Source of the DNA: a virus
Length of the DNA stretch: 28,318 nucleotides
IMG/VR virus record: IMGVR_UViG_3300030116_007618
Span: 1 to 28,318 of that record
Direction: 5' to 3' (one strand)
Shown piece after piece: positions 8,152 to 9,996 of the stretch. A program made the position numbers and the translations under genes. How positions within the stretch are numbered: the first letter of the stretch is position 1; the number at the start of each line of letters is the position of its first letter. The notes beneath the pieces are model-generated. The model did no database searches and was not told the DNA's origin. It saw nothing but the letters and a program-made list of their open reading frames with translations.

Positions 8152-8375
8152 TGGCTAAATATAAAATAGTTGGTTCAAAAAAAGTTCAAGGCAAAGAGCC
8201 AGGCGAAGTTATTGAAGTAACTGATGAACAAGTTGCAAAAACATTAATGAAAGCCGGACATATAAAACCTACTAGAATTATAAAGAAACGTGCTAGAAAA
8301 AAAGATGGCACATTTATAAAAGATGATAAAAGTACGCCAGATATAAACGAGGCGTGGGAGCAAGTAGATGGCTAA
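8151..8375 (+). CDS. small basic head/tail-region protein
   Basis: A 74-residue protein starting MAKYKIVGSKK. The start at 8151 is chosen over an in-frame ATG at 8085 because it has GGAGGA at the right spacing and avoids a long overlap with the tail terminator gene. The segment KEPGEVIEVTDEQVAKTLMKAGHIKP resembles a small beta/helix unit found in many phage structural operons; the rest is Lys/Arg-rich. Likely a minor virion or assembly protein; exact role unknown. Confidence 0.65.
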   Translation: MAKYKIVGSKKVQGKEPGEVIEVTDEQVAKTLMKAGHIKPTRIIKKRARKKDGTFIKDDKSTPDINEAWEQVDG

Positions 8376-9093
8376 GTTTGTATTTAATGATGGTAAGGTT
8401 TTTACTGGTGGCTATGATTTAAGTAGCAATGTAACATCTGTTAATTTAGAAATAAACGCTGAACAATTAGATTCAACAACAATTAATTCTGGCGGATTTT
8501 ATGAAACCTTAGGCGGATTAAAAGATAGCACTTTACAAATTGATGGATTTTATGAAGCTGGAGCTAATAAGCCGGACGCTTTATTAGGAGCCTCAGTAGG
8601 TAATGAACTTATAGTAACTTCTGTTCCGGACGCTGGCGTAGGTAATATAGCTTACTTTATGAAATCATCATTATTTAGTTATTCAATATTAGGTGAAGTA
8701 GGACAAATAGCGCCATTTAGTATTACTAAAAATCAATCGTCAGACGTTGTAGTAAGAGGAACAATTCAATTAGATTCTGCCTTGACTTCATCAGGTAATT
8801 CAACTGGAACACAGCTAGGAGCCGTTGGAGCAACTGAAAAATGTTATGCAGCTATTCATTGTTATAGTGTTTCAGGAACATCTACTCCAACTATAACTTT
8901 TAAATTACAATCAGACGACAATTCTAGTTTTACAAGTCCAACTGATCGAATTACTTTTACTGGTATAACAGCTATAGGTGCAGATTTTCAAAGTGTTGCC
9001 GGGGCTGTAACGGATCAATATTGGCGTTTAAATTATACAATATCTGGAACAAATCCAAGTTTTGGAATTCATGCAACAATAGGTATTGAATAA
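8368..9093 (+). CDS. tail tube protein paralogue 1, with extra C-terminal domain
   Basis: A 241-residue protein. Residues 1-130 share MAKFV--D, DLS-NV-SV-L-I-A and GGLK--TL-I with the protein at 9589-9996, so the two are homologues of the siphovirus major tail tube family. Residues 130-241 form an additional Ser/Thr-rich beta domain (AVGATEKCYAAIHC, TITFKLQSDDNSSF, YWRLNYTISGTNPSFG) of a type seen in other phage tail proteins. Either paralogue could be the main tube subunit. The start has GGGAG upstream and overlaps the previous gene by 8 nt. Confidence 0.75.
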   Translation: MAKFVFNDGKVFTGGYDLSSNVTSVNLEINAEQLDSTTINSGGFYETLGGLKDSTLQIDGFYEAGANKPDALLGASVGNELIVTSVPDAGVGNIAYFMKSSLFSYSILGEVGQIAPFSITKNQSSDVVVRGTIQLDSALTSSGNSTGTQLGAVGATEKCYAAIHCYSVSGTSTPTITFKLQSDDNSSFTSPTDRITFTGITAIGADFQSVAGAVTDQYWRLNYTISGTNPSFGIHATIGIE

Positions 9094-9129
9094 AAATAAT
9101 TTAAATTATTACGCATTATAAAAAATACT

Positions 9130-9138
9130 TGCTATAAT
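9130..9138 (+). promoter_or_regulatory. extended -10 promoter for the structured RNA cassette
   Basis: TGCTATAAT is a perfect extended -10 element. The expected transcription start, about 7 nt downstream, falls at 9145-9146, the first base of the long terminal stem of the structured RNA. The -35 region (TTACGC at 9109-9114) is poor, as is common for extended -10 promoters. The match between predicted start and stem end makes it more credible than an isolated AT-rich hit. Confidence 0.65.
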
Positions 9139-9145
9139 AAATATA

Positions 9146-9294
9146 GAACGCTTTACGAACTGCGTATGTTTGGAAAGCAAAATAGGGTCGCATTGATTCT
9201 AGTGCGAGCCCTGGTTTTAAAACCTAATATTTTGTTTATAAAAACATAATGCTAGATGGCAACCAAACTATGAAGCGCAGTTTGTAAAGCGTTC
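9146..9294 (+). ncRNA. multibranched structured RNA, unidentified class
   Basis: Outer stem P1: 9146-9164 pairs with 9276-9294 over 19 consecutive pairs, one of them G-U. P2: GTTTGG 9168-9173 with CCAAAC 9263-9268. Inside are three hairpins: P3 AGGG-TCGCA (9184-9192) with TGCGA-g-CCCT (9203-9212); P4 GGTT-TTAA-AACC (9213-9224); P5 ATT-t-TGTTT (9229-9237) with AAACA-t-AAT (9242-9250), loop ATAA. The P3 loop side TCTAG (9198-9202) could pair with CTAGA (9252-9256) as a pseudoknot. It encodes no ORF and lies between a promoter and a 49-residue ORF. It may be a free ncRNA or a cis-regulatory leader. I cannot match it to a named RNA family. Confidence 0.75.
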
Positions 9295-9313
9295 AAATAA
9301 AAGGAGGACATAA

Positions 9314-9463
9314 ATGGCAATGAGTAGAAAACATTATGAAGCAATAGCGGAAGCTTTAAAAAATAATTTTGCTACAAGCGATCTAATACTTGATTTAGCA
9401 GAAATATTTGAAAATGACAATCCAAGCTTTGATGTTAGTAGATTTTTAAAAGCAAGTAGATAA
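9314..9463 (+). CDS. small helical protein of a widespread phage type
   Basis: A 49-residue protein (MAMSRKHYEAIAEALKNN..., ending FDVSRFLKASR) preceded by AAGGAGG. The pattern SRKHYEAIAE, then a hydrophobic helix, then NPSFD--RFL-AS is one I recognise from uncharacterised small ORFs in marine phages. Here it is isolated from the tail operon, bounded by the structured RNA upstream and two hairpins including a terminator downstream. It looks like the protein part of a moron-type cassette. Function unknown. Confidence 0.75.
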   Translation: MAMSRKHYEAIAEALKNNFATSDLILDLAEIFENDNPSFDVSRFLKASR

Positions 9464-9485
9464 TATATAAGCAGCCCCTTATATA
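9464..9485 (+). other. AU-rich hairpin after the 49-residue ORF
   Basis: TATATAAG (9464-9471) pairs with CTTATATA (9478-9485) around a CAGCCC loop; one further A-T pair extends it outward. It begins directly after the stop codon and precedes the GC-rich terminator. It could protect the 3' end or be a weak first terminator. Confidence 0.5.
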
Positions 9486-9493
9486 TACGAGTG

Positions 9494-9518
9494 AAAGACC
9501 GGACCAACCCCGGTCTTT
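9494..9518 (+). terminator. intrinsic terminator
   Basis: AAAGACCGG (9494-9502) and CCGGTCTTT (9510-9518) form a perfect 9-bp stem with a 7-nt loop. The descending arm runs into TTTTGCTTTAAT. This is the clearest Rho-independent terminator in the window and closes the RNA/49-residue-ORF cassette before the second tail tube gene. Confidence 0.8.
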
Positions 9519-9588
9519 TGCTTTAATAACATATAAAACTTTCTTTCGATAGCCTCATTTAAAATAAATATATTGAAAGGAGTTAATT

Positions 9589-9996
9589 TTGGCTAAATTT
9601 GTATTAACAGACGCAAGCGTAGTGCTTAACAGCGTTGATCTATCAGACCACGTTGCAAGTGTTACTTTAGATATTACAGCTGATGAAATAATGACCACAG
9701 CAATGGGCTCAACATTTCAAACAAGAACGGGAGGCCTTAAATCAGGTACTCTTTCGATCGAGTTCCAGCAAGATTTTGCTTCAAGCGAAGTTGACGCAAC
9801 TTTATTTCCTTTATTAGGAACAACTACAGCTTTTGTAGTTAAACCTACTTCAGGATCGGTAAGCGCAACTAATCCAAGCTACTCAGGCAATGTCTTAGTA
9901 AATCAACATATACCTTTAGCAAATGCTGTAGGAGAGCTTGCCACAATGTCAGTTTCGTTCCCAACTTCGGGAACAATTACTCGAGCTACAAGTTAA
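9589..9996 (+). CDS. major tail tube protein, paralogue 2
   Basis: A 135-residue protein starting at TTG with AAAGGAG upstream (MAKFVLTDASVVLNSVDLSDHVASV...). The sequence, including FQQDFASSEVDATLFPLL, VKPTSGSVSATNPSYSG and the C-terminal GELATMSVSFPTSGTI, closely fits the compact major tail protein of actinobacterial siphophages. It directly precedes the frameshifted tail-assembly chaperone, the usual position of the major tail gene. It is homologous to the N-terminal half of the protein at 8368-9093. Confidence 0.85.
   Translation: MAKFVLTDASVVLNSVDLSDHVASVTLDITADEIMTTAMGSTFQTRTGGLKSGTLSIEFQQDFASSEVDATLFPLLGTTTAFVVKPTSGSVSATNPSYSGNVLVNQHIPLANAVGELATMSVSFPTSGTITRATS

Follow-up and report, generated by a model that had tools for sequence, protein, structure and literature searches.

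What kind of element fills the gap between a pair of paralogous major tail protein genes in IMG/VR record IMGVR_UViG_3300030116_007618, where a noncoding stretch of 149 nt is predicted to form an elaborate RNA fold immediately upstream of a small ORF? The RNA could serve the ORF as a leader, could be a palindromic DNA insertion, or could be a product in its own right. The stretch analyzed (the window) is that virus record over 28,318 nt, and its coordinates are used throughout (Table 1). It encodes a large terminase, a protease, a major capsid protein, a connector, and tail proteins, and no tRNA genes were found in it. The nearest match of the terminase is in a Pontimonas phage and those of the capsid protein are in mycobacteriophages (31-40% identity for the two proteins), a combination suggesting that the host is likely actinobacterial.

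Table 1. Features of the cargo site and its borders (window coordinates unless a relative is named)
Feature	Position	Strand	Evidence
Major tail protein gene 1 (MTP1), left border of cargo site	8368-9093	+	phrog_9522, E 1.4e-40
Extended -10 element TGCTATAAT of cargo-site promoter	9130-9138	+	Sequence; TATAAT in nearly all relatives' leaders
Structured RNA, 149 nt, predicted +1 at 9146	9146-9294	+	MFE z -8.7; top-conserved 149-nt stretch against RNA-plus relatives
P1 5' arm, pairs with 9275-9294 (20 pairs with G-U)	9146-9165	+	
P1 3' arm	9275-9294	+	
P2 5' arm, pairs with 9263-9268 (6 bp)	9168-9173	+	Pair probability ~0.87
P3 5' arm, pairs with 9229-9237 (9 bp)	9175-9183	+	Pair probability ~0.5-0.6
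Hairpin P3a	9184-9212	+	Most pair probabilities 0.75-1.0
Hairpin P3b (GGUUUUAAAACC)	9213-9224	+	Pair probability ~0.56-0.76
Hairpin P4; CUAGA complementary to UCUAG of P3a loop region	9250-9261	+	
Shine-Dalgarno AGGAGG of 49-codon ORF	9302-9307	+	Sequence; predicted accessibility 0.57
49-codon ORF, small phage protein family	9314-9463	+	Relatives at 48 IMG/VR loci; no NCBIfam, no Pfam above cut-off
Probable intrinsic terminator closing cargo transcript	9494-9518	+	Terminator prediction and sequence
Major tail protein gene 2, right border of cargo site	9589-9996	+	phrog_4574, E 1e-31
Structured noncoding RNA, ~0.8 kb, same cargo site	L015:2046-2852; L034:1347-2115; L147:219-1003; L017:4818-5602		

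The initial annotation described a 19-pair closing stem, a second stem, and three internal hairpins, all noncoding, and both arm complementarity and folding recover this architecture. The two 19-nt arms (9146-9164 and 9276-9294) are 95% complementary, and none of 100 shuffles matched the arm with three or fewer mismatches; the lone mismatch is a G-U pair in RNA, and an extra U-G pair extends P1 to 20 pairs. Length alone is less striking, as a 20-pair stem with G-U allowed arose in one of 12 simulated sequences. The whole RNA has a minimum free energy (MFE) of -60.6 kcal/mol (z about -8 to -8.7; 0/200 shuffles as low), and the core stripped of P1 still folds below all 200 shuffles (z -3.3). The top scorer among 2254 windows of 150 nt, scanned in 25-nt steps on both strands of the 28-kb record, overlaps the RNA. 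Pair probabilities are at least 0.8 throughout P1 (mostly ~1.0) and lower (~0.5-0.75) in P3, which encloses P3a and P3b in the predicted fold, and in P3b and P4. The coding-sense strand folds better than its complement (-60.6 versus -48.6), which favours an RNA over a DNA palindrome. A possible 5-bp pseudoknot had also been noted; the P3a and P4 loops are indeed complementary (UCUAG/CUAGA), so that the pairing is possible, but by a simple energy estimate the duplex (-3.3 kcal/mol) would cost 8.9 kcal/mol of hairpin pairs, leaving it energetically disfavoured and unsupported.

The RNA begins 7 nt past the extended -10 element, so that the predicted start coincides with the first base of the stem, as initially noted; the +1 at 9146 is a prediction by spacing. 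No good -35 accompanies TGCTATAAT, and a consensus promoter scan that requires a -35 does not list this promoter. The proposal that the RNA has its own promoter holds as to the element's presence but not as to exclusivity, since TATAAT is kept in the leaders of nearly all relatives, RNA-plus and RNA-less alike, at the same place. In relative L015 the RNA stands behind a different upstream sequence. No terminator lies directly 3' of the RNA; a free RNA would therefore need processing.

Copies of the RNA are known from the window and three other IMG/VR contigs only, always at this tail-gene site: L035, L049 (the same as L138), and L015 (the same as L115). These three copies are mutually identical, with 5 of 149 positions differing from the window's copy. 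Searching IMG/VR for exact patterns turned up no copies beyond these contigs and this one site; BLAST against phages and plasmids found no homolog (the best phage match was 28 nt and AT-rich); and a covariance model run over 35 complete viral records and ~135 fetched loci recognized nothing beyond the known copies, with hits on their reverse strands as well, and one weak hairpin match in L109. Seven matches to a gapped pattern in a prokaryote genome set were not recognized by that model. The initial annotation knew of no RNA class with this layout. In Rfam 15 there was no gathering-score match in the window and nothing relevant to E<=10 in 9000-9600. By these searches, the RNA is rare among known virus fragments.

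The site itself, compared among relatives fetched from IMG/VR, is variable. The gap between the two tail protein genes is empty in many (57-63 nt) and filled in others with 273-1590 nt carrying differing small ORFs. It shows the features of a phage moron or cargo cassette, namely presence or absence between close relatives, core-gene flanks, and a predicted promoter and terminator.

Between the window and its RNA-plus relatives, the RNA is 96.6% identical and is the top-conserved 149-nt stretch in each alignment; the alignment mean is 79-81%, the next best 149-nt stretch elsewhere reaches 91-93%, and MTP1 is 79-81% identical. So few changes in the RNA at the mean rate have a probability of about 1e-9. 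The promoter (92%) and leader (95%) are also well conserved; the 49-codon ORF is 73% identical, and 47-63% of third codon positions are the same. Two of the differences between the RNA versions keep pairs and two break them (2/55 model pairs are broken in the second version); with only two distinct sequence versions, no pair is altered on both sides. The 4.8 kb upstream are 97.4% identical between L049 and L016, yet only L049 has the RNA; comparison of L015 with L034, L147, and L017 gives the RNA as a clean 149-nt insertion after TATAATAAATATA whose ends are the stem ends. In L010-L013 the leader has AACGTTC at the point where the two ends of the stem would join, possibly a scar left by deletion. 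Because of the L049/L016 difference, the clean L015 insertion, and the contrast in identity between RNA and ORF, we conclude from these alignments that gain and loss of the RNA occur independently of the ORF.

The initial annotation had also considered a cis-regulator of the 49-residue ORF, and had listed retention of the ORF without the stem among the findings that would count against its reading. As regards a required cis-regulator, the relatives present just this: of the 20 contigs in this phage group that carry the ORF, 4 have the RNA and 16 lack it, the latter keeping the ORF (and promoter) nonetheless. A conserved leader of the family would accompany most homologs, and the RNA is therefore not a required leader of this ORF; on comparative grounds it is an RNA-encoding cassette inherited separately. 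The RNA was not recognized upstream of more distant ORF homologs, some of whose leaders fold well. The accessibility of the Shine-Dalgarno sequence is predicted to be the same with or without the RNA, so the model does not predict occlusion of the ribosome site. The ORF family has the consensus MAMSRKHYEAIA...DNPxFDxxKFLxA and is present in many viral contigs; searches with its product gave nothing in NCBIfam and nothing above cut-off in Pfam.

A second structured RNA, unrelated to the first, occupies the same site in four relatives (L015, L034, L147, and L017; ~0.77-0.81 kb). Its fold is strong (z -4.6 to -4.9 in L034 and L147), and its alignment contains several consistent one-sided pair changes and eight two-sided ones, some of them in a poorly alignable central domain; that domain is replaced by unrelated sequence between copies. 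It has no long ORF, no Rfam match, and no phage match. In L015 the large RNA is followed directly by the 149-nt RNA. In L147, the large RNA has at its 3' end an exact antisense match of 15 nt to window positions 9270-9284 (E 3e-4); the match is 12 nt in L015 and L034.

Sequence comparison establishes the site and how its content varies, shows the RNA cleanly present or cleanly missing at the predicted transcript start, and separates the history of the RNA from that of the ORF. On that footing we favour, tentatively and at somewhat less than even probability, an optional, moron-like cargo cassette with a structured RNA product that is cleaved off the leading end of the cargo transcript and acts in trans. 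A short cargo mRNA ending at the terminator would begin with the RNA; the nearly blunt 20-bp P1 helix would shield the RNA's 5' end and allow its release by cleavage, with RNase III as one candidate enzyme; and the freed, folded core would act on a host or rival-phage factor. The chief competitor, possible though rather unlikely, is a cis-acting 5' leader whose near-blunt helix at +1 protects the message against 5'-end-dependent decay or controls expression of the downstream ORF in some other way. Such a role fits the position of the RNA, which in each of the four contigs starts exactly at the predicted +1 and stops a short way upstream of the Shine-Dalgarno sequence, as well as the two different ORF versions found behind it; most ORF-positive relatives lack the RNA, however, the predicted ribosome-site accessibility does not respond to it, and plain protection needs neither a 149-nt branched core nor near-complete sequence conservation. 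Given that conservation, the branching of the core, and how loosely the RNA is tied to the ORF, action in trans is a somewhat better reading than action in cis.

Less probable still is a palindromic insertion at the DNA level (MITE-like or a hairpin element) with no function as RNA. Ends that coincide with 19-nt inverted repeats, the clean junction against L034 and L147, and the possible scar in L010-L013 are what such an element would leave; yet a mobile element of this kind should occupy several sites and duplicate its target, and both IMG/VR exact-pattern scans place the RNA in these contigs at one site, where a duplicated target is not clearly seen. Read in the transcribed sense, moreover, the mismatches of the stem are G-U pairs, so that the coding strand folds better, and the core is structured too. 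We consider it improbable, more so than the insertion, that the high identity merely records a promoter-leader block that related phages recently exchanged by recombination, the RNA riding along as a passenger. The cargo site is plainly mosaic, the RNA copies of L015, L035, and L049 are identical though their genomes differ by 5-14%, and a block of promoter, RNA, and leader could yield such identity without constraint; but three of the five differences between RNA versions fall within one 5-nt linker (chance about 1.6%), and recombination leaves the existence of such a fold unexplained. Group I or II intron, retron, and packaging-RNA readings were dropped, there being no family match and no relevant gene among those annotated.

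Among known systems, the phi29 packaging RNA likewise has a closing helix, a branched core, and mutually complementary loops; the 149-nt RNA differs in that it has no Rfam match, an ordinary large terminase is encoded in the window, and most relatives lack the RNA. GOLLD and ROOL are large, ornate phage RNAs that, like this one, are structured and have no assigned function (PMC12286853); they span several hundred nucleotides against 149 here, where there is neither an Rfam match nor a nearby tRNA gene. The prophage-encoded regulatory small RNA svsR (PMC12803456) and phage-encoded anti-sRNAs (PMC4104026) resemble the proposed RNA as products of phage accessory regions that affect the host or a rival phage. 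The likeness drawn is one of kind; the 149-nt RNA is the branched 5' part of a predicted cargo mRNA and lacks a terminator of its own.

Optional cargo at this one accessory site includes at least two structured RNAs that are unrelated to each other. It is conceivable, if doubtful, that the site swaps structured noncoding RNAs as it does small protein genes, and that both are new RNA classes affecting the host or rival phages. The near-isogenic pair L049 and L016 would suit a clean functional test of the 149-nt RNA. Phage accessory sites are mined for protein genes; should these RNAs prove to be trans-acting, phage cargo would include RNA cassettes that have so far been overlooked.
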